This document shows, piece after piece, positions 2,810-28,757 of a stretch of DNA of 34,534 nt. Every line of letters begins with the position of its first letter. Position 1 is the stretch's first letter. Source of the DNA: Lachnospiraceae bacterium (GTDB lineage: Bacteria; Bacillota; Clostridia; Lachnospirales; Lachnospiraceae); NCBI GenBank assembly GCA_016286115.1, contig JAEESA010000004.1, forward strand, positions 1 to 34,534, given 5' to 3'. The notes beneath the pieces were generated by a model. The model had not been told where the DNA came from, searched no databases, and saw only the letters and a list, made by a program, of their open reading frames with translations. Both the position numbers and the translations under genes were made by a program.

Positions 2810-3055
2810 TCATCCCTCCTTGCTTAAGTCGCACAACGCATCCTCGATATCGGCAATTGCCTGTGCGTTTCCAGTCGCCTTCTGCCATGTCTCCCACTGT
2901 TCAAGCGGTACCTTTTCTTCATCCCATACCCATACTTCTGTTTTTTCTTCACCCGATATCCTTGTTTCAGTATGGATATTCTTCCGAATGTACACAGTTG
3001 ATTTTCCCACTGTAGCCTCCTCCGGTTTCACGCTTCCTTCTGCTGCTCTCCACAT
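2810..3055 (-). CDS. Small phage protein downstream of RT, unknown function
   Basis: 81 aa, colinear with operon, start overlaps RT end by 28 nt. Confidence 0.6.
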   Translation of the reverse strand: MWRAAEGSVKPEEATVGKSTVYIRKNIHTETRISGEEKTEVWVWDEEKVPLEQWETWQKATGNAQAIADIEDALCDLSKEG

Positions 3056-4101
3056 AGTTTCTCCTTCCTGATACGTCTGTCGTACCTGCTTATTTTTCTT
3101 TTAAGTTGCTGAAAATTTATATAGGGTTTTATCCTATCCAGATACATGTCATAACTGTCTGTCTGCTTAATCCATCCCAAGGCCGACATCATTCTGCGAC
3201 AACTATATATAGTTGGATTCTTCTTGAATCGTTTTGCGCGTCTGGTCATTCTAACCATGATTCCTTTGCGTAGCGTTGTCCTGTTGCGATAAAATCTAAA
3301 CCCCATAAAATCAAGAAACCGATATTTCCCGCCCCGATCGAACCTTGCTACTTGCCAGTTTCCTTTTAGCTCAAGTTTAAGCTCTTTTAGATATTCATCC
3401 ACACATTTGCATATCCTATGAAGTTCCTTCTTGCTACTTCCGAATATGACCATGTCATCCATGTAACGCACATAATGGACTGCTTTCAGATCCTGCTTGA
3501 TGTAATGATCCAGCCCCTGAAGATACCAGTTAGCTAGCCAATGCGATGTATGGAACCCGAGCGGTAATCCCTGCTTTGTTGAATCTATTACCTCGAAAAG
3601 GATTTTCAAAAACTTTTCGTCATGGATTCGCTTCCGGATATATGCTTTTAGCATTTCGTGGTCTATGCTCGCAAAGAACTGCCTAATATCCATTTTTAGG
3701 AAGTATTTCACATTTTTCGGATCGTTATCTATCCAACTCCGTATCTGGCGCTTTGCTTCCGCTGGCCCGCGTCCCGGTATCGATCCGTGACAGTGTTCAT
3801 ACATTCCCTTCATAATCACCGGTTGCATAGTATTGACCAGCATATGGTGCAGTATTTGTTCCTTGTACGATGGAACTATTATCTTCCTCTCTTTCTTTCC
3901 CTCAATGACCGTCTTCGGCTTCTTGTTTTTGTGTTTGTAATTCTGCGCATACGCAATGATGTCCGGTATCTCCCTATCCATGTTTTCGCACATCTTTCTC
4001 ACTTTTGGTCTGTTATGTTTGCCCTTTGATGCCTTCTTCACTGCAGAGCGAACATTTTCTTCCGACATCATCTTCTCATAAAGATGGTTATAACTTTTCA
4101 T
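3028..4101 (-). CDS. DGR-type reverse transcriptase
   Basis: RT motifs FLKMDIRQFFASIDHEM, QGLPLGFHTSHWLANWYLQ, YVRYMDDMVIFG; directly downstream of TR and target gene in canonical DGR order. Confidence 0.93.
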   Translation of the reverse strand: MKSYNHLYEKMMSEENVRSAVKKASKGKHNRPKVRKMCENMDREIPDIIAYAQNYKHKNKKPKTVIEGKKERKIIVPSYKEQILHHMLVNTMQPVIMKGMYEHCHGSIPGRGPAEAKRQIRSWIDNDPKNVKYFLKMDIRQFFASIDHEMLKAYIRKRIHDEKFLKILFEVIDSTKQGLPLGFHTSHWLANWYLQGLDHYIKQDLKAVHYVRYMDDMVIFGSSKKELHRICKCVDEYLKELKLELKGNWQVARFDRGGKYRFLDFMGFRFYRNRTTLRKGIMVRMTRRAKRFKKNPTIYSCRRMMSALGWIKQTDSYDMYLDRIKPYINFQQLKRKISRYDRRIRKEKLCGEQQKEA

Positions 4102-4220
4102 TTTCTTATCCTCTCATCGGCTTTCGACATGCTACTTGCCGATGCTCGCACCGAGTTTATTTTCTCCAAGAGGAGAGGACAGACCCACACTTCCGTTTAT
4201 ATTCTGTAATTGGATAAGTT

Positions 4221-4335
4221 AGCGAAGCCCCGATGTTCCAGTTCGCGTTCGAAGCGTCGTTGTTCAGGTTCGCGTAAAACGCGCCATCCTTCACGCCGTT
4301 GTTGGAGTTGCCACCGCGTAGCGGAACACGAGCAC
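4221..4335 (-). repeat. DGR template repeat (TR)
   Basis: 115 bp aligned gap-free to 4445-4559 at offset 224 with 12 substitutions; AAC-rich on - strand; located between target gene and RT. Confidence 0.95.
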
Positions 4336-4366
4336 ATGTGGGTAAGCCCTTGTTAATTAAATAATA

Positions 4367-4393
4367 AGGGGACACGGCCTTGCCGTTTCCCCT
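4367..4393 (-). other. Hairpin between VR/target gene and TR
   Basis: AGGGGAAACGGC / GCCGTGTCCCCT stem with one mismatch and a 3-nt loop, followed on - strand by TATTATTTAATT. Confidence 0.6.
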
Positions 4394-4422
4394 CTGCCCG
4401 GCATGGCCAGTCATTCACCCTT

Positions 4423-5745
4423 TCAGGCGAGTGGTTTGCAAGAAAGCGAAGCCCCGACGGTCCAGTCCGCGGTCGAAGCGTCGGCGTTCAGGTACGTGGA
4501 AAACGCGCCATCCTTCACGCCGTTGTTGGAGGCGCCACCGCGAAGCGGAACACGAGCACCACTGTTGTTGAACCAGCAAGCATCGCAATAATGCGTAGTA
4601 GACGTGCCACTCATGGTTTTGGGAAACATTCCATCGTCTGTATAATTCATCTCGGAGATAAAATTACCGCTTGTGCCTGCAGGCGTTGATCCTACAGACT
4701 TAAATCCACTGCCTGTAAAATTGTATCCCTCTACTGTAGAACCATCTTCTTGCCCGTAGGTATTCTTTATTTTCTGTACGCCGTCTATCAAGAGATGTCC
4801 TTGATACCGTCTCCACTGGAAGCCCCACCAATTTTCCATTCCGAATACCTTTACCGCGTTAACGTAATTTCCGTCTGCAATCGTGCCGCTGTTTGTACCA
4901 TAGAACAAGCCTTTTGCGTTGTGTATTCCTGTACGGAAGTTATTGTTAACAGCTTCTGAACCACCTGTGTGAAGTCCCTGTCCGAAGGCATTTTGCGTAT
5001 CCGTAGTCTTTGACAACAGAATAAGCAGCATATTGACGAGCAGTATGTCACAGTGAAGCTCTGTGTTCCATATGGTAGCTGTCCCCTGATTATTTGCCTG
5101 TGCGGCGGTGACTTCAGCATCTGCTGGTCTCTTGTTGCCTACCTGCTGTCCCGACAGAGAACGCATCTTGTTATCGATTACGCTGCCGTTATAAATTGGC
5201 GTGTAGAAATGTGCTACACTCTGACCCTTGCAGTTGTGGAACGGCCAGTCATGGTACGTTGAGTCCACCTGATAGTCTGCTATATAGACAGTTGCGCTTG
5301 CAGCGTCTCCTTCGTCAGGTTCAATCTTCATCCAAATCTTTTTGCCATCACGTCCCCACTCCATCATGGCATTTCCACTATAAGTAGTGTCTGCTATGTC
5401 AGATGCACTTCCGTCCTCTTTTAGGCTGTAGTCGTCAGGATCAAGGTAGTAATCTACTGTCCCATCATGTTTCAGCATACAGGGACGAGGCATAAAGAAC
5501 TCGTCTCTTTTCCAGCCTCCATACCGGAACTTGTTGTTGGTGTAATCCATTCCTGAAGGCGTCTTCCCCACCGCATCGCGTAGATATGTCACCTTGTTGG
5601 CGGGGTTATCCTCGCTTTCGTCAATGTGGAATGCGTAGACTGTACCCTTACCGCCTCTGATGGCCGATGCTATCTCTCCGATTCCGGCTGCTATCATCTG
5701 GCCCGTCTCGTCTGTAACCACTGGTGATGTTATTTCTGTTGACAT
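4423..5745 (-). CDS. DGR-diversified tail/receptor-binding protein (C-type-lectin-like C-terminus)
   Basis: 440 aa; C-terminus GARVPLRGGASNNGVKDGAFSTYLNADASTADWTVGASLSCKPLA contains the VR and has the motif pattern of phage DGR target proteins. Confidence 0.9.
   Translation of the reverse strand: MSTEITSPVVTDETGQMIAAGIGEIASAIRGGKGTVYAFHIDESEDNPANKVTYLRDAVGKTPSGMDYTNNKFRYGGWKRDEFFMPRPCMLKHDGTVDYYLDPDDYSLKEDGSASDIADTTYSGNAMMEWGRDGKKIWMKIEPDEGDAASATVYIADYQVDSTYHDWPFHNCKGQSVAHFYTPIYNGSVIDNKMRSLSGQQVGNKRPADAEVTAAQANNQGTATIWNTELHCDILLVNMLLILLSKTTDTQNAFGQGLHTGGSEAVNNNFRTGIHNAKGLFYGTNSGTIADGNYVNAVKVFGMENWWGFQWRRYQGHLLIDGVQKIKNTYGQEDGSTVEGYNFTGSGFKSVGSTPAGTSGNFISEMNYTDDGMFPKTMSGTSTTHYCDACWFNNSGARVPLRGGASNNGVKDGAFSTYLNADASTADWTVGASLSCKPLA
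4445..4559 (-). repeat. DGR variable repeat (VR) at C-terminus of the target gene
   Basis: Near-identical to TR; 11 of 12 differences fall at template A positions (coding sense). Confidence 0.95.
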
Positions 5746-12435: not shown

Positions 12436-13058
12436 TTAAAAATCCTTGAGCGAATCAAGCTTCTCCGGTTCGATCTGATAGGTACTGACCTTTTCAAGAT
12501 TGAACAGCTCTTTGTATATCCGGAACTTGTCGCTGAACTCCCCTAGATACATGTGCCATGCTTCCCTTTGTGAATACCCCAGCCGTGTCATGGCTATAAC
12601 TTCCACTAGCTGCCAGTCTATGACTGCATCTTCTTCGTCGTCTTTTTCTGGCTGGGGGTCTCTTTTTTTATTGCCAGGGCTCCGTAGAATTCTTCCAGCA
12701 GAAGTTCCGCCAGCTCAAAAGGATTCATATCTATTTCATCTATGATGAATTTAGGATCCACATCAGGAACTTCTTTTCTTTTTTTGTCTGCCTCATACTG
12801 CAGGCCTTCCTCTATCATCAAAGGAAGCGCATAATTTACCGCTTTGAGTGAAGGTTCTGTCTTTGTATATAACTTCAAGCCATCTTCATTTGTTCTCTGT
12901 TCGCCATCTTTGTCCAGGAGTGGTTTTCTTCCTGAAAGCTGACGTTCAAACTCCGCAAGAGTTCCATATTCTTCCTGTATTTCTGCAAGCACCGAATTGC
13001 TGCATCTGTATGGATATTCCTTTCCTGAAAGTTTGATTTTCTTGAGAGTCTTATTCAT
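12436..13058 (-). CDS. Tail assembly chaperone, -1 frameshift fusion (gpGT-like)
   Basis: -1 slip at AAAAAAA (12663-12669) gives ...ALAIKKRDPQPEKDDEEDAVIDWQLVEVIAMTRLGYSQREAWHMYLGEFSDKFRIYKELFNLEKVSTYQIEPEKLDSLKDF*. Confidence 0.88.
12618..13058 (-). CDS. Tail assembly chaperone, short form (gpG-like)
   Basis: Position between major tail protein and tape measure; slippery A_AAA_AAA_G near its 3' end. Confidence 0.85.
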   Translation of the reverse strand: MNKTLKKIKLSGKEYPYRCSNSVLAEIQEEYGTLAEFERQLSGRKPLLDKDGEQRTNEDGLKLYTKTEPSLKAVNYALPLMIEEGLQYEADKKRKEVPDVDPKFIIDEIDMNPFELAELLLEEFYGALAIKKETPSQKKTTKKMQS

Positions 13059-13085
13059 GCATTCCTCCTGATGTTCAATAATAAA

Positions 13086-13159
13086 TAGCAGGGGCAGGAT
13101 TTGAACCTGCGACCTTCTGATTATGGGTCAGACGAGCCTCCGCACTGCTCCACCCTGCG
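13086..13159 (-). tRNA. tRNA with CAT anticodon, initiator-like
   Basis: CGCAGGG TG GAGC AGTGCGGAG GCTC G TCTGA CCCATAA TCAGA AGGTC GCAGG TTCAAAT CCTGC CCCTGCT A: D, anticodon and T stems perfectly paired; acceptor paired except 1:72. Confidence 0.92.
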
Positions 13160-13163
13160 ATAA

Positions 13164-13189
13164 AGCAAGAGGCTCTGCAGCCTCTTGCT
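13164..13189 (-). other. 11-bp perfect hairpin immediately 5' of the tRNA
   Basis: AGCAAGAGGCT-loop-AGCCTCTTGCT between the major tail protein stop and tRNA 5' end. Confidence 0.7.
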
Positions 13190-13203
13190 GGTTAATAACG
13201 ACC

Positions 13204-14037
13204 TTACACATCCTCTGTAGCGGTCTCCGTAATGACGATATTGCCAGTTACTGATGTTATCGTCACCTTCGATGTACTGCTATCCCAGGCTGTGGATGTC
13301 ACATCCGTACCGCCCATGGTAACAGTAGGAGTGGCCAGAACATATCCGGTATCCGCTGTCAGCGTTGTGATAAAGCTTGTTCCTTTCGCAACTTTTGCAG
13401 CGCTATTGCTACTTGCAGCATGTGAAAGAACCTGTGTGACTGTGTACTTCGTGGTAGTGAAAGTGTTCTCTACCCCCAGTTTATCACAGATCCAGTCAAC
13501 AGCCTCTGACTCATTTGAGAAATTATAATTTCTCACTCTCCAGTTGGTAGAATCATCCTCAATTGCAAGGATTTTACCGTTAAGTGAAGGTGTAACAAAG
13601 TTAATGCCATCGCCCTTTGTCTGGAAATCCTCGGCGCCCTCTGTGAACTTTGCTCTCCAGAACACAACTGCATCGTATGTGCCGTCATGGTTCTTTGATG
13701 TAAAGCCCACGCCTACCTCACCGGCCGAATCGGATGCGGAAGAAACCTCCTCCCCCGTTGACTGATTTACGCTGTGACCAAACAGGATCTGTGCAGCCTG
13801 ATAAGGAAGTGTTGTAGCTCCGAGAGCTATTGCTGCATCCGTAAATTCAGTTACATCGGCTACCTTCTTATCGTCCCCGAAAAGAGCTCCTGTCGCGTAG
13901 TTCGGTGTGATATTTGCCGTCTGTGCTTCTCCGCACTGGAAAGCATCGCTATAAGTAGCTGTGCTCCCCTCAATATATGTCCTCCTAGCCATAATCAGCT
14001 TTGATAAACCGAATCTGTACTTTTTGCCCTTAAGCAT
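13204..14037 (-). CDS. Major tail protein with C-terminal Ig-like/BIG-like extension
   Basis: MLKGKKYRFGLSKLIMARRT...; C-terminal VTMGGTDVTSTAWDSSTSKVTITSVTGNIVITETA. Confidence 0.85.
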   Translation of the reverse strand: MLKGKKYRFGLSKLIMARRTYIEGSTATYSDAFQCGEAQTANITPNYATGALFGDDKKVADVTEFTDAAIALGATTLPYQAAQILFGHSVNQSTGEEVSSASDSAGEVGVGFTSKNHDGTYDAVVFWRAKFTEGAEDFQTKGDGINFVTPSLNGKILAIEDDSTNWRVRNYNFSNESEAVDWICDKLGVENTFTTTKYTVTQVLSHAASSNSAAKVAKGTSFITTLTADTGYVLATPTVTMGGTDVTSTAWDSSTSKVTITSVTGNIVITETATEDV

Positions 14038-14404
14038 TTTCTTCTACCTCCTTGGTAAATTTACATTCAAAGACAAGGTGCCTTACCTCATCTTCATCTG
14101 ATAGTTTCTCTGAAAAAACACTGTAGGATACTCCAATTGCGTCATTTTCGGCAAGATATCTCGCCACATCAACAGCCAAACCCTGATAATTCGTTTCATT
14201 CTTTCCCGGTTTTCGTTTGATAAGCGTAATGTTTATTATCATGCTGGCGGTTTCCATAAGGGTTTCATTGTCTCCGAAAAGTTCTCCCCTTACATCGGCA
14301 TAATCAAATACTATGTATTCATCTTCTGTTCCGGTATAGCTGTCTTCTTCAACTTCAAGTCCCGTCACACCTTCCAGGCCGAGCATTATGCTGTTGATGT
14401 TCAT
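14030..14404 (-). CDS. Tail completion/terminator-like protein
   Basis: Size and order between HK97 gp10-like gene and major tail protein. Confidence 0.7.
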   Translation of the reverse strand: MNINSIMLGLEGVTGLEVEEDSYTGTEDEYIVFDYADVRGELFGDNETLMETASMIINITLIKRKPGKNETNYQGLAVDVARYLAENDAIGVSYSVFSEKLSDEDEVRHLVFECKFTKEVEENA

Positions 14405-14826
14405 CCTTTGGTTCTCCTATTAAACTCTTCCTGCATTTTTTCAGCACATTCTTTTTTTGCATTGTTTGCAGCTTTGTCCAGCCACGGTCTTGCACTCATC
14501 TTCGTGGTGCCATAATTCAAGTATGCAGCTATCTCAGCATTCCTTACGGGATTTTTCCTTCTGCTGCCATCCGGATTCTTTTTGTTTGTCCCGGTCGGTC
14601 CTATAAGCTGACGATATCCACTGCCTCTACGCACTCTCTTGGGTTTGTAAGGCTTTACGGAATCTATCAGCTCTGAACTTCCGGATCTTATGGACTGTCT
14701 GAGTGCCTTCTTTACAGCATCTTCAGCTATCGGAGCCGCTGATTGCAGTATTTCACTGTAATCTGAATCCGTAAGCGCCAGTTTGTCGATAAATTCCGTC
14801 ATTTCGACCTTAAGACTAGCCATCAT
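14401..14826 (-). CDS. HK97 gp10-like head-tail protein
   Basis: Size, order, RNAEIAAYLNYGTTKMSARPWLDKA motif. Confidence 0.8.
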   Translation of the reverse strand: MMASLKVEMTEFIDKLALTDSDYSEILQSAAPIAEDAVKKALRQSIRSGSSELIDSVKPYKPKRVRRGSGYRQLIGPTGTNKKNPDGSRRKNPVRNAEIAAYLNYGTTKMSARPWLDKAANNAKKECAEKMQEEFNRRTKG

Positions 14827-15173
14827 TCCACCTCCGAAAGGGAAAGCTCCATAATCACATCATCCTTTTGGTACATGCGGACTATTGAATACTCAGTACC
14901 GTCAAAAAGCAATGTGGACGGCTTGAATTTTTTCCCATTCACTGTGACGCATGCCGCACGGTAATCATCTGCATACACAAGTGCCATGATCTTTACACTT
15001 ACTCCACTCCTGAGAGCTTCATAAACTTCTGACCTAGTGGCGGATTTGATCTTGCAGTATACGTCCAGATCACTTGTGGTTGATCCGCTATAGTAGCCGT
15101 CCTTATCCCTTGTCCTTGCGGTCTGTGTGCGCAAGGTTGCCAAGTCATTCATTGCATTCATGCGATACCTCAA
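14823..15173 (-). CDS. Head-tail adaptor/head closure protein
   Basis: MNDLATLRTQTARTRDKDGY...; size and order. Confidence 0.75.
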   Translation of the reverse strand: MRYRMNAMNDLATLRTQTARTRDKDGYYSGSTTSDLDVYCKIKSATRSEVYEALRSGVSVKIMALVYADDYRAACVTVNGKKFKPSTLLFDGTEYSIVRMYQKDDVIMELSLSEVE

Positions 15174-15441
15174 TAGTTGACTTCCTCAGATTCTGTTCCT
15201 GGTAGATCCACGCATCACGATACTGTTCGTATCTATCCGGTGCTCCCATCTTCATGCAGCAGTACGTAGCAATAGCTTCTACCACAAGATCGTGATCTGA
15301 TGATGCAACATCAAGGGGCACGCCCGAGCGGTTAAGCTCCGCCCGGGCCGTCCTTATGTTCCTATCGATTTCATCACTTAACCCCGTCGCTGCTGCCGGT
15401 GATAATCTCAATGCAGTTATGACCGTGTCTTTTACTGCCAT
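15145..15441 (-). CDS. Head-tail connector (gp6-like)
   Basis: 98 aa helical protein immediately downstream of the capsid gene. Confidence 0.75.
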   Translation of the reverse strand: MAVKDTVITALRLSPAAATGLSDEIDRNIRTARAELNRSGVPLDVASSDHDLVVEAIATYCCMKMGAPDRYEQYRDAWIYQEQNLRKSTIEVSHECNE

Positions 15442-15460
15442 TTCTTACTCCTTACTGGCC

Positions 15461-16642
15461 TTATGACTGAGCCGCAAGTGTAACTACTACGAAGCCCTTG
15501 TGTACTACGATGTTACCACCGACCATGCACTCTCCCATAATGGTAAGCAGGCCTTCAGCAAACTTGTAATCTTTGGACACTTCAATGGTATAAGGTCCGA
15601 AGAGACCAAGTTCGAAGTTCTGAGGATCGCCATATACCATCGTCTGGATAGCAGATGCCCCCTGTGTAGCAGTTGAAAGGCTTGTAAGCTTCGAGCAGAT
15701 GGAATAAGGAACGATAAGACCGCCCTCCTTGATGATACCGGTGTTGGGATTTCCGGCATCAGGTGTAATCTCATACAGTGCCTTCTTCTCATTGGTACCG
15801 CGAACCTTTCCGAATGCTGCCAGGTCTTCCTTGGTAAGGAAGAGACGTGCATTTGCACCCAGCTCATCAGATCCGCCATAAGCAAATACGATACTCTTGA
15901 GTGTGTCAGGGCCGATCGTAGCGCTGGAAACATTAAGGGTATCGTAGATAGCCTCCTGCTTGGTGTTAGTTGCGATCTTGATACCGTCAAAGCTTCCGGA
16001 TACACCATTCACGATAAGGTCTATAACCTTAGCGCGGAGTGCCTTGATAGCCATAGCCTTGATCTTCTCTTCGTAGCGTACGGGGGTCAGCCTGTTGATA
16101 TTCTTTGAAACATAGCTTGTAACATTTACAAGATACGGATTCAGCTTTGCTACTCTGAATACGGGATCGCTGGGGCTTGCATTTGCTGATCCGTCTGTTC
16201 TTGTACCTGCTGCCGACTCAGTCTTTACATAAGGCTCCTCGTATGCCTGGCATCCGGTCAGATCTTCAACGCGTACCGTGTTGATAAGAGATGACATTCC
16301 TTCCAGATTGTCCCTGATCTCTGTTCCTACAAGAGTCGGCTTTGCGAGGGAATCTGTAGCGATAAGTGTAGAACGTACTTCTGCTGCATCCATTACAGCT
16401 CTTCCGGTAGCTTTTACCTCTGCTGCCCTCTGCTCTGCATCATCAGCAGGTGCCTGCTCTTCTTTCCCGATAAGGCTTCTGCGAACTTCTGCAGTCTTCT
16501 CTGCACGCTCCATAAGCTCTCTTTCCTCTGCCTCGAGCTCCGCTATGCGGGCTTCGATCTCCGCAAGGCGCTCTGCAGTTACATCACCTTCAAGTTCCTT
16601 TGCAAGATTCGCTCTCTCTGCTCTGATTTCTTCAAGTCTCAT
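15461..16642 (-). CDS. HK97-family major capsid protein
   Basis: Coiled-coil delta domain MRLEEIRAERANLAKELEGD... then capsid-like domain; downstream of protease. Confidence 0.92.
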   Translation of the reverse strand: MRLEEIRAERANLAKELEGDVTAERLAEIEARIAELEAEERELMERAEKTAEVRRSLIGKEEQAPADDAEQRAAEVKATGRAVMDAAEVRSTLIATDSLAKPTLVGTEIRDNLEGMSSLINTVRVEDLTGCQAYEEPYVKTESAAGTRTDGSANASPSDPVFRVAKLNPYLVNVTSYVSKNINRLTPVRYEEKIKAMAIKALRAKVIDLIVNGVSGSFDGIKIATNTKQEAIYDTLNVSSATIGPDTLKSIVFAYGGSDELGANARLFLTKEDLAAFGKVRGTNEKKALYEITPDAGNPNTGIIKEGGLIVPYSICSKLTSLSTATQGASAIQTMVYGDPQNFELGLFGPYTIEVSKDYKFAEGLLTIMGECMVGGNIVVHKGFVVVTLAAQS

Positions 16643-22605: not shown

Positions 22606-23087
22606 TGTTCTCCATCCTCCCTTTCCATCTTTGCTCCGCAGTTGGGGCAAAATGCCGTCAAGCTTTCCTCGTCGCCACTATGCTCCCATCCGCACCTTGA
22701 ACATTCCCACTTATCCCATACAGGATTACCGTCTGCATATCCGTCATATTCTAATGGTACCCACCGCCCCATCTTCGGCTGTGGTGTTAGAGATGGCAAC
22801 TCGAGAATATCTTGCATTATCGTTGCGGTACTTCTTCCCCTTGACACGCAACACCTTTCATCACTTATTGCTCTTGCTAATTCGTCAACTAATGTATTTA
22901 CTGCCTGCTTGCTGATAGCATCACCGTCCTGCTCCTTGTACACTTTCAATTGCTTGAGCCACTCGGCAAGTTGTCTGTGTTCTTCGGCACATCTACATTC
23001 CTCTAAAGTTACAGCCTTGATTTGTTTTATTCTGTCGTGACTATCTGCCACTTCTTCTGCGTGCTTAATCGCTTCATCCAGTGTCAT
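22602..23087 (-). CDS. Phage protein with C-terminal zinc ribbon
   Basis: MTLDEAIKHAEEVADSHDR...WECSRCGWEHSGDEESLTAFCPNCGAKM; ATGA overlap with Rep gene. Confidence 0.7.
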   Translation of the reverse strand: MTLDEAIKHAEEVADSHDRIKQIKAVTLEECRCAEEHRQLAEWLKQLKVYKEQDGDAISKQAVNTLVDELARAISDERCCVSRGRSTATIMQDILELPSLTPQPKMGRWVPLEYDGYADGNPVWDKWECSRCGWEHSGDEESLTAFCPNCGAKMEREDGEQ

Positions 23088-23944
23088 TCCTTCTTCCTCC
23101 TTGCCGGAATCTCCGTGTAATGCAGGTATGACAGTCCGGTTATAGGATTGATGCCCTGTACCCATGATTCCTTGTCGATTATGTACCCGTCAGTACGGTG
23201 ACGGTTAATGGTTGTATTGAGTCCTTCCACACCTGTGTCAAGGATCCGGCGCATAGTCCAGTGACTGTATGTCCTTTTCACCGGAACAGGACGGATAAGG
23301 TTGCGGCTGCATCCGTACTTGCTGACCTGCTTAAGTTTATCCTCCGGGATCTTCGTTCCATCATCCAGTGTGTCCGGCTGCTCTTTGGCGATATAGTCTG
23401 CCAGCTCACGGCCGTCGCTCATCTTCCCGTCCTTGAAACGGTGCACGTAGTCGATATGAGTCATGCCGTCCGTATACTCTGCCAACATGTCCTCAAGGTC
23501 CGTTGCCTTCCTTGCCCTTGTCCATGCTCCTGATAACTTCTTATATCCATCCTCTCCCAGCCTGCTCATGACCACATGGATGTGGATACCTCCACGCCTG
23601 CCTATCTCTACCCGGTAGATATACTTGAAAGCGGTTTCCTTTGCCTTATAGCACTTTCTCATGATAGCTATGAAACGCTTATAATCCTCAAGCACTTCTT
23701 CGAATGCCTTCCTGGTACCCTTGGGGTACTTGAGTGTAAGCCAGTAGTCACCTTCATCAAAGTTCAGCTGGATAAGCCTCCGGATCCTGTTCTCCTTGTT
23801 CCTCTGATTCTGCTTTTTGATCTGCTCCGGTGTAGCCTTCCTTCTCTCTGAACGCTTTTCACCTTTAGCCCCATAATTTCCTTCCCAGTAGAACACATGC
23901 TCTATACACCAGGGGGATTCATATATGTACTCGGTATATGCCAA
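23084..23944 (-). CDS. HUH-family rolling-circle-type replication initiator
   Basis: DYWLTLKYPKG, YIYRVEIGRRGGIHIHVVMS (HUH), ELADYIAKEQ (candidate catalytic Tyr). Confidence 0.75.
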   Translation of the reverse strand: MAYTEYIYESPWCIEHVFYWEGNYGAKGEKRSERRKATPEQIKKQNQRNKENRIRRLIQLNFDEGDYWLTLKYPKGTRKAFEEVLEDYKRFIAIMRKCYKAKETAFKYIYRVEIGRRGGIHIHVVMSRLGEDGYKKLSGAWTRARKATDLEDMLAEYTDGMTHIDYVHRFKDGKMSDGRELADYIAKEQPDTLDDGTKIPEDKLKQVSKYGCSRNLIRPVPVKRTYSHWTMRRILDTGVEGLNTTINRHRTDGYIIDKESWVQGINPITGLSYLHYTEIPARRKKE

Positions 23945-25361: not shown

Positions 25362-26714
25362 CTACCTCCTGCTGCCGCCAAGCTTCTTCATGTACTTAAG
25401 CTCCTGCACTGCGTTGTATATCGCTTCTGCATAACCGAGGTCGAAGGTCACATCCACATAGTCGTAATCTTCTTCCCTCTTCTTCAGGCGCTCCACTACC
25501 CTCTCATAGTCTGAAAGTATTTCTTCGAGGGCTTCTATGGTCCGATCCGGCTCCATGTACTCGTATCTGTCATCCTCAGGGTTATCAAGGGAAAGGTCGT
25601 CAGTCTCCGGTTCGGGCGTTTTTTCATCTTCTTCGCTGCCACTCCACGTAGTGGATTCGGGCTTTTCTTCATTTTTTGCCTCTGAAACGCCCATTTCATG
25701 GGATTCTTCATTTTCGGAATCCCCTTCCTTCGTCTTGGATACTGGCTTTTTCGGCTCTTCTATTATCTCCGGTTTCTCATATTTCTTTTTTTCAGGCTTT
25801 GAAGATGACACTTTTGACTCTTTTTTCTTCTCCTTCGGCTGTTGCACCGGTGCAACTTCCTCTTTCCGGGGGAACTCTGCATCATAAATGTGTTCCCAGA
25901 GGTCTTCGGAGCTGTCCAGCTTATCATCTGCAGGATCCTTTTCCTGGTTCACATCGTAGATCTTCACAAGGGAGCGCCCTATATCGGATGCAGTCACCTT
26001 TTCCTTCGTGTTGCTCCTTATGTTTACCAGGCTTATGTCTCCGTCCTTGAACATCAGCATGTATTTTCCCATGGTCGGTATCCTTACGGAGTATGTCTTT
26101 GCTCCCGCAGGTGCCATTATTTCCGGTATACGCTCGTCCTTTGGATTTATCCCGAAAAAATGCTCATCAGCAAGCGCTACGAACAGTTCCGGCTCATTCT
26201 CAAGGATATAGAAGATCGCGTGGTCAAGCATCGAGAAGTCCTTCGGGACTTCCGGCCTGTCTTCCATCATCACCTCTATGTCTGTGATCTTCTTTTCTTC
26301 CTCCACTTCTTCCTTTACGGCCTGGATCTCTGATTTCGTGTAAGACGGTGTAAGCTCCTCTGCTACCTTGTCCGGAAGAGTCAGCATGATCGCAAGCTTC
26401 GAGTACTCGAAGCCTTTATATCTGTCATCCAGTTCTTCAGAATTTCCGCCCTTGGAATACTTGTCGTTGATATTGATGAAACGCGATACCTGGGACTTGT
26501 CGATGTGATATTCCTTCTCTGCAAAGTCGATGTAGCTTTCATACGGTGATTCCTTAAGGATATCCGTATCCCTTGCCACCTTCAGCAGGTAGCCTATACG
26601 CACGAAGCTCTTTGCGGTGCGCTCCATGTTCTTTTTGAGCTCAGCTTCTTCATAATCAAACTCTATCTTGAACTCGTTATATGTCTGCTGATACTTTATT
26701 GCGTGTTCTTCCAT
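25362..26714 (-). CDS. Phage DNA-binding-like protein with low-complexity Lys/Glu linker
   Basis: 450 aa; HTH-like N-terminus (HIDKSQVSRFININDKYS), charged linker with embedded 16-bp palindrome. Confidence 0.6.
   Translation of the reverse strand: MEEHAIKYQQTYNEFKIEFDYEEAELKKNMERTAKSFVRIGYLLKVARDTDILKESPYESYIDFAEKEYHIDKSQVSRFININDKYSKGGNSEELDDRYKGFEYSKLAIMLTLPDKVAEELTPSYTKSEIQAVKEEVEEEKKITDIEVMMEDRPEVPKDFSMLDHAIFYILENEPELFVALADEHFFGINPKDERIPEIMAPAGAKTYSVRIPTMGKYMLMFKDGDISLVNIRSNTKEKVTASDIGRSLVKIYDVNQEKDPADDKLDSSEDLWEHIYDAEFPRKEEVAPVQQPKEKKKESKVSSSKPEKKKYEKPEIIEEPKKPVSKTKEGDSENEESHEMGVSEAKNEEKPESTTWSGSEEDEKTPEPETDDLSLDNPEDDRYEYMEPDRTIEALEEILSDYERVVERLKKREEDYDYVDVTFDLGYAEAIYNAVQELKYMKKLGGSRR
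25841..25856. promoter_or_regulatory. Palindrome GTTGCACCGGTGCAAC (copy 2, intragenic)
   Basis: Exact 16-bp match to copies at 12418-12433 and 30432-30447. Confidence 0.6.
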
Positions 26715-28230
26715 TCTTCTTTCCCTCCAGGTATTTTATATATCCGTCCAGCCATGGCTGTATCTCATCTTCGTGAGGCTTCTTGTCGTAAGCTTCGTAC
26801 CACTGGACTATCTCTTTATCCTTTATCTCTATGGTTACGTAGGGTTCTTCCGGCTTTTCTTTCTTCCTCATGAGCAGAATGAAGCTTTTACCTTTGGCAT
26901 GCTTCTCAAGATAATTGTCACCTCCTACGCAGTGGTGCATGAGCCTTCCTTCCATCACTATCTCTCCGGCGCACTTTGCCGGCCGGATCAGATAGCCGTC
27001 TGATTCAAAGGAGTAGATCTTTGCAGTCTTCCTGTACTGTTTCTTTATGTCTGCATAATTCTTCTCCACTTCCTTTATGCGTTTATCCAGCTTCGCAGCT
27101 TCCTTCTGCAGCACCATTTCGTTATGCGCGCTCTGAAGGTCTCTGGGAAAAAGATAGACGGAATTGCTCAGGTCGTAGCCCTCATCCATCCGCATGCGGA
27201 TATAATCGATGTAAAGATGCCTTGGCGCTTCCTGTGCTATCTCAAGGTAGTCGGTCAGTTTTTTTATCGTGGTATGCTTAAAAACTTCCTGCATGACTTC
27301 CTTATCCCTTTTGTCCCAGAACTGTTCGAGGTATATATGCTCCTCTATCTCCTCGGAAGTCCAACGTCTGCCACTCTTGCATTCTGCCTGAAAAGCCAGC
27401 AGATATTTTCTTTCACCCCTCAGGTCCTTCAGTTCCTTGAGCCTGTCCTTACGTATCCTGAGAAGTCCTGCCGGTGTCTTCGATCTTGTGTTCCAGTGGA
27501 TCGAGTACCCTCTGATCACCTGCTTTTCAAGCTCAGTCATCCCGCTCTTCTGGAACATCTCAAGCGCCGGATGCCATGACAGGGCTTCGTAGTAGTCAAG
27601 GGGATCGTATCCGTTCCGCAGGATTCCGTATCTCATCCAGGTCTTGTCCAGTTCTTTTCTGTAATACGGATCATAGTGCCACCTTATTATGCTTATGTTG
27701 TATATGCCGCCTATGTTGTGCGGATGCCATGTGGGCTGCCCGCTTGCCCAGTGGTCAGTCCAGCGGTACCATTTTTCGGGCTTTTTCCCTTTACGCAGGA
27801 ATATGCGTGCATATTCATAATGTTCTATCTCTGTCTTCTGACATCTGTGCGTCAGGGCGGTTGTGGTGAATGCCCTGAACACAAAATCATCACCCATCTT
27901 CTGTCCTGTCACCCAGCTTACGGACGGGTGGAATTCTGACCGGCATCTGCCTTCGCTCTTGTAAGTACCTACCGCATGACACAGGATGCACTGTCCCTTC
28001 GTATTGTGGTAAGGGATCTCGATATGCCTCTGCGCCTGCTGTTCAAAGGTTTCCGGATAATCCGTCCGTCCTTCATAGGTCTTTCCGCATGCAGAGCATG
28101 TGACTGTTGCTATATTCGATTTTCTTTTGTAAAAAAGGATATATTTATCAGGCAGAAGATCTTCTGCCCATGCGTATGATTTTTGGGGAATCTTGCGCAT
28201 TTTAGGCATCTTTGGGAGAGGTTTGCTCAC
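26677..28230 (-). CDS. PcfJ-like protein
   Basis: C-terminal GEIVMEGRLMHHCVGGDNYLEKHAKGKSFILLMRKKEKPEEPYVTIEI; probable GTG start overlapping upstream stop (GTGA). Confidence 0.8.
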   Translation of the reverse strand: MSKPLPKMPKMRKIPQKSYAWAEDLLPDKYILFYKRKSNIATVTCSACGKTYEGRTDYPETFEQQAQRHIEIPYHNTKGQCILCHAVGTYKSEGRCRSEFHPSVSWVTGQKMGDDFVFRAFTTTALTHRCQKTEIEHYEYARIFLRKGKKPEKWYRWTDHWASGQPTWHPHNIGGIYNISIIRWHYDPYYRKELDKTWMRYGILRNGYDPLDYYEALSWHPALEMFQKSGMTELEKQVIRGYSIHWNTRSKTPAGLLRIRKDRLKELKDLRGERKYLLAFQAECKSGRRWTSEEIEEHIYLEQFWDKRDKEVMQEVFKHTTIKKLTDYLEIAQEAPRHLYIDYIRMRMDEGYDLSNSVYLFPRDLQSAHNEMVLQKEAAKLDKRIKEVEKNYADIKKQYRKTAKIYSFESDGYLIRPAKCAGEIVMEGRLMHHCVGGDNYLEKHAKGKSFILLMRKKEKPEEPYVTIEIKDKEIVQWYEAYDKKPHEDEIQPWLDGYIKYLEGKKNGRTRNKVSADI

Positions 28231-28757
28231 TTTTCTCCACCTCCCAGGTAATATTCCCTGATTATGCGTTTCGCGTCTGCCATGCAGGGTATCCCGAATG
28301 TCACTTTGCCGGCTGATACTCCCGCAGCTTTTACGATTTTCTGAGGAACTGACTGCTGGTGTTCGAATGACCACTTGAGCAGTGCTGCCATCATTCCGGC
28401 GAGGGTCTTTCCCTTCTTCCTTACAGCCTGCGCTATGTCGCTTTCATCCATAACAATGGTCTGCAGATAGTCCACCCAGTCCTCCATAAGGTCCTTGGGT
28501 TTAAGTTCTTTGCATTCCACTTTTATCTTGCCCAGTGCCGCCTGGATCTCATTGCAGAAGAGTCCGTAAAGGTTGTCATTCATGTAGTCCTCTGCGTCTT
28601 CCGGATCCAGCCCGTTTTCTTCGGCAAGCACCTTAAGGCTCTCAATGTCGCCCTCTTCCTTCAGGCCTTCTGCTGCCCTGTTGATCTCCTCGTATGAATC
28701 AAATTCTCCAAATCTTTCAAACATGCTTCTTCTCCCTTCAGCTGTGTTTCCATCCAT
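28227..28757 (-). CDS. Hypothetical protein, conserved neighbour of PcfJ-like gene
   Basis: MFERFGEFDSYEEINRAAEGLKEEG...; colinear. Actual start probably the internal MFERFG. Confidence 0.6.
   Translation of the reverse strand: MDGNTAEGRRSMFERFGEFDSYEEINRAAEGLKEEGDIESLKVLAEENGLDPEDAEDYMNDNLYGLFCNEIQAALGKIKVECKELKPKDLMEDWVDYLQTIVMDESDIAQAVRKKGKTLAGMMAALLKWSFEHQQSVPQKIVKAAGVSAGKVTFGIPCMADAKRIIREYYLGGGEK

Follow-up and report, generated by a model that had tools for sequence, protein, structure and literature searches.

The locus examined here raises the question of whether a prophage of a Lachnospiraceae bacterium carries a working diversity-generating retroelement (DGR) that acts on a tail protein gene, and how such an element marks the ends of its template. 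The window, that is, the whole stretch of DNA analysed, comprises 34,534 nucleotides of contig JAEESA010000004.1 (assembly GCA_016286115.1), and all features given below with window coordinates are on the minus strand. An earlier sequence-only reading had proposed a complete DGR in an apparently intact prophage.

Within the first 9 kb, the longest direct repeat family found by the repeat search was the pair formed by the template repeat (TR) and the variable repeat (VR). In the 115-bp alignment previously proposed (TR 4221–4335, VR 4445–4559), our recount agreed with the 12 substitutions, 11 of which (92%) fell on TR adenines when read in the coding sense, against a threshold of 75% or more for a DGR. 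The eight adenine-driven amino-acid changes and the silent CTA to CTT change were recovered, and the total of 12 was correct, but the twelfth substitution, G to A at TR position 4273 (codon GCG to ACG), had been counted and left out of the list of codons. The alignment was five bases longer than described (TR 4216–4335, VR 4440–4559), and the extension adds two A-to-T changes, so that 13 of 14 substitutions in the 120-bp repeat are at TR adenines. The hypergeometric p values for the adenine bias were 6.6e-8 for 115 bp (25 adenines) and 2.8e-9 for 120 bp (27 adenines). In the TR alignment of the relatives, G is the commonest base in the column of position 4273 and T, A, and C are also present; the non-adenine change is thus most simply explained as an ordinary mutation. 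The rest of the bin contained no second VR (next match 28 nt, E = 0.03).

The reverse transcriptase (RT) gene (3028–4101; 357 aa) has an intact open reading frame, retains the YMDD motif, and matched RVT_1 (E=1e-21) and PHROG 1423. The closest solved structure was 8ub7 (328 aa; E=1e-30), which we take to be the BPP-1 DGR enzyme, partly on account of its length. BPP-1 Brt in AY029185 is also 328 aa long. The matches to 8ub7 and PHROG 1423 mark the enzyme as an RT of the DGR type. It carries the motif SHW, while SQW was found in 78 of 89 relatives and SH in 11; SQ is typical of DGRs.

The target gene (4423–5745) is likewise intact and encodes a 440-aa tail protein (PHROG 5302, E=3e-79), with VR at its 3′ end. 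The sequence-only reading had assigned a C-type-lectin-like fold to the C-terminus and had suggested fold prediction as a check. The AF2 model, built with 50 relatives, had a mean pLDDT of 94, and the top matches in a Foldseek search of the PDB were DGR variable proteins, led by TaqVP (5vf4, E=3e-11) and including Mtd (1yu4, E=1e-2); matches to PvdO and a Treponema variable protein were weaker than that to Mtd. According to the predicted fold, VR encodes the C-terminal lectin-like part of a protein with the C-type-lectin-like fold of DGR variable proteins.

RT searches yielded 80 viral and 51 genome loci, and the four closest genome matches were ruminant Lachnospiraceae bins. The layout, with TR and VR upstream of the RT gene (typically at about −235 and −460 from the RT start), was shared by 96 relatives, among which 1538 of 1569 TR/VR differences were at adenines and 31 elsewhere. 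In three near-identical phages from different samples (L037, L040, and L042), the RT differed by 0–0.2% and VR was preceded by 445 identical nucleotides; their VRs differed at 18–22 of 33 template-adenine sites and at 0 of 80 other sites. Another pair (L012 and L013) had identical RTs and VRs that differed at 15 of 28 adenine sites. These differences between near-identical phages indicate that the clade is active, and VR variation at adenine sites among close relatives, the absence of which had been named as grounds for rejecting the DGR reading, is present in clade members. The exact element occurs once in the data, and phage and plasmid records contained no DNA-level relatives; activity of this copy would follow from that of its clade. 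Together, the adenine-specific TR/VR pair, the DGR-type RT, the variable-protein fold of the target, and the 96 relatives of like layout bear out the DGR identity. The element is an ordinary kind of DGR, one of thousands, and it is highly probable that it is a phage DGR of a clade of Firmicutes prophages that lack Avd; this explanation of the locus also takes in the template RNA fold described below.

Avd (PF05635, PHROG 3206) had no match in the cassette or in the host bin, in searches that recovered both positive controls, BPP-1 and the sister phage L175. It was also absent from 19 of 20 same-clade records, many viral records being fragmentary. The sole same-clade Avd (G830, 3.2e-23) lies on a contig that may or may not be the one bearing the clade RT of that genome. 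The description of the element as complete therefore holds for a DGR of the Avd-less type, Avd itself not being found, and this DGR family seems to work without Avd. The Avd-less state may have been described previously in the literature.

The spacer between TR and the RT gene contains an RNA matching Rfam RT-18 (RF03021) with 48.4 bits against a gathering score of 41.3 (4102–4175; helices P2, P3, and P4, with P2 beginning at 4176), and 9 of 13 relatives also scored above gathering. An initial P3/P1 pairing taken from a single-sequence fold was dropped and replaced by the covarying pairing. In the latter, the P1 5′ strand, CTTATC (4213–4218), lies at the TR 3′ boundary and pairs with GATAAG at 4105–4110, with 92.9% of cells paired in 39 sequences; this 3′ strand, together with that of P3 (GAG), occupies 4105–4113, just before the RT start codon. 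Over 39 spacers, 94.1% of P1–P4 cells were paired, compared with 40–50% in slid registers, and cells with changes on both sides numbered 108, compared with 25.4 in shuffles.

A further helix, P0, is formed by GGGCTTACCCACAT directly upstream of TR (4336–4349) and GTGTGGGTCTGTCC in the spacer, which takes up the 14 nt immediately ahead of P2 (4177–4190). Its sequence varies from locus to locus while pairing is kept. In a partner-swap test on 48 loci, the score was 25.7 with the own partner and 16.2 with swapped partners, none of 20000 permutations reached the observed mean, and the own partner was the best of all in 33 loci. In a stricter, position-fixed test on 56 loci, 64.4% of positions were paired compared with 52.6% after shuffling, with a maximum of 58.2% in 5000 shuffles. 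Within the window, 12 of 14 pairs form, eight of them consecutive, which is hardly significant when this sequence is taken alone (p = 0.04 at best). P0 was weak in the PHROG-18126 clade. Since BPP-1 showed no P0-like helix and none was clear in the Avd-type sister cassette, its role is not general to DGRs. A description of P0 may already exist in the literature.

Covariation indicates that P0 links the TR 5′ flank to the spacer and that P1 connects the 3′ end of TR with the start of the RT gene. P0 crosses P1 and together they form a pseudoknot with TR held between them at both ends. In the reading that we prefer, a transcript of TR and spacer would fold in this way, anchored by P1 at the 3′ end of TR and by P0 at its 5′ flank. 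The RT would bind the folded RNA, start the cDNA in or beside the spacer, and copy TR with misincorporation opposite adenines. On reaching the 5′ edge of TR, synthesis would probably be halted by the P0 duplex, in analogy to the upstream stop reported for BPP-1 cDNA (PMC12875486). The mutated cDNA would then replace VR in the 3′ end of the target gene, and the exposed, lectin-like, host-contacting surface would be altered as a result. The priming step, the cDNA stop at P0, retrohoming of this copy, and the binding of a receptor are the inferred parts of this scheme. The deposited 84-nt RT-18 model covers P2–P4 only, and P0 and P1, which tie the RNA to the TR ends, are absent from it. Tentatively, and with somewhat less than even confidence, we propose further that this large Avd-less phage DGR clade relies on an enlarged template RNA, in which the P0×P1 pseudoknot keeps the TR ends by the RT-18 core and P0 sets the cDNA stop. 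If this proposal is true, RT-18 is the core of a DGR template RNA whose TR-clamping helices are lacking in the database model.

Between VR and TR, about 45 nt past VR, lies a stem-loop, AGGGGAAACGGCAAGGCCGTGTCCCCT (4367–4393), and most relatives have counterparts after VR of the form GGGGAAAC..GTGTCCCC or GGGAGAAC..TTCTCCC. A stem-loop downstream of VR, as expected of a DGR, is thus present, with a loop that is not GRNA and at a distance above that published; the hairpin after VR in BPP-1 has a GRNA loop and a distance of 4–34 bp (PMC3240598). The stem-loop could alternatively be a terminator. In many relatives, two successive stem-loops follow VR (4365–4410 in the window), with loops unlike the published GRNA pattern.

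These structures could also be read as acting at the level of DNA or transcription, P0 and the post-VR stem-loop serving as a cruciform or a terminator and not in a template RNA clamp. Inverted repeats are able to act as DNA or RNA, and BPP-1 requires a DNA hairpin after VR (PMC3240598). However, P0 flanks TR and not VR, and its partner lies within a spacer whose remaining helices covary as RNA, G-U pairs included; we consider this reading quite unlikely. It is less likely still, and indeed very improbable, that the element is dead, a decayed DGR with old TR/VR differences. Although the one non-adenine substitution and the occurrence of a single copy in the data would fit decay, the RT with its YMDD motif and the target gene are intact, the RT-18 RNA scores above gathering, and P0–P4 are retained.

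The small gene after the RT can be accounted for in two ways. This conserved 81-aa open reading frame (2810–3055) overlaps the RT 3′ end, and a homologue was found at the matching place in 105 of 121 loci. Its family alignment is highly divergent and unsuited to a pattern scan, and tblastn across phage records found no relatives. Among 397 family genomes, there were eight strong matches, all directly after a DGR RT, and a sample of the class beyond these genomes gave a single new match in the same position. This association with the RT, together with the missing Avd, would suit an Avd substitute, that is, an accessory binding RT or RNA and needed for homing. The AF2 model (pLDDT 84) nevertheless predicts a beta-hairpin and two helices, unlike the four-helix bundle of Avd, and the protein had no match to PHROG 3206 and, with its model, none in a PDB fold search. 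Moreover, genes of a sister family, PHROG 18126, follow directly behind target-like tail genes in five loci with no RT in the sequence at hand (L168, L176, L193, L195, and L206) and behind a target with TR and VR, again with no RT, in L194. Because RT-less loci retain relatives of the 81-aa protein, the idea of an Avd substitute was lowered, and we regard it as doubtful. The same loci favour a gene of the tail operon, perhaps one encoding a chaperone or adaptor for the target, with the TR–RT unit lying between it and the target, as does the sister phage L175, in which both the target and the small open reading frame of the equivalent slot are different. Against this stand the facts that its own subfamily (A1) was never confirmed without an RT and that no similarity to a known chaperone was found. 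This second account is nonetheless rather probable, and a tail-protein partner is more likely than an Avd substitute. The gene may have been described as an accessory before. Separately, the TR/VR pair of L194 (4450–4760) differs by 27 adenine and two other changes in 118, representing an RT-less or non-autonomous DGR, and L107 (9062–9436) has the small protein in fusion with a domain of the phage family XkdX.

The prophage carries genes for terminase, portal, protease, capsid, major tail protein, tape measure, Dit, holin, endolysin, and integrase, with a flavodoxin gene beyond the integrase on the right side. Its description as apparently intact is borne out only in part, because the 34.5-kb contig begins in the lysis module and the left attachment site is missing. 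The bin (G000; contamination 7.4%) belongs to the same family as Butyrivibrio hungatei, and the host is accordingly placed in Lachnospiraceae; the RT region of B. hungatei (G248) is among the loci compared (L094). In a scan of tail genes for phages with the same module, the Gp37-like gene found none and Dit found one, L175 (IMGVR_UViG_3300021399_005560), whose tape measure, Dit, and next tail gene are 91%, 77%, and 73% identical, respectively. In contrast, the cassette in its equivalent slot (12799–15860) comprises a different target together with an Avd-like gene and an RT with 27% identity, and its TR shows 17 adenine changes and no others. Since the tail module is shared and the cassette in the slot differs, sister phages appear to swap DGR cassettes of two types as whole units.

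The element resembles the BPP-1 DGR (mtd-avd-TR-brt, AY029185) in having VR at the 3′ end of a tail gene, TR downstream, a spacer, an RT, adenine-specific mutagenesis, and a target fold related to Mtd. It differs in the absence of avd, in its P0 helix, and in the greater distance between VR and the stem-loop. In general features, namely a virus-borne location, a structural target, and high turnover at adenine sites, it is similar to clades 1, 4, and 6 of gut Firmicutes phage DGRs (Roux et al. 2021, PMC8144416). The Faecalibacterium prophage DGRs (PMC11792537) likewise belong to Firmicutes prophages, and some of them have two variable regions, whereas one is present here. The features of the locus that merit attention are the extension of its template RNA and the lack of Avd. 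Comparison across the clade bears on how a DGR can mark its template ends and work without Avd in the cassette, the orphan Rfam RNA RT-18 gains a defined place within a working system, and the base pairs predicted by covariation are specific enough to be disrupted and repaired in an assay.

Several minor observations were made in the course of the analysis. In L060, a 244-kb contig, TR lies at −348 relative to the RT start and two VR-like matches lie downstream of it, at +2901 and +4748, which is probably a case of one DGR with two targets. In the early region of the prophage, genes were found for a PcfJ-like protein (26677–28374) and a replication-initiation protein (23084–23944). A tRNA-Met (CAT) gene (13085–13160) is located within the prophage tail operon, between the genes at 12618–13058 and 13204–14037.
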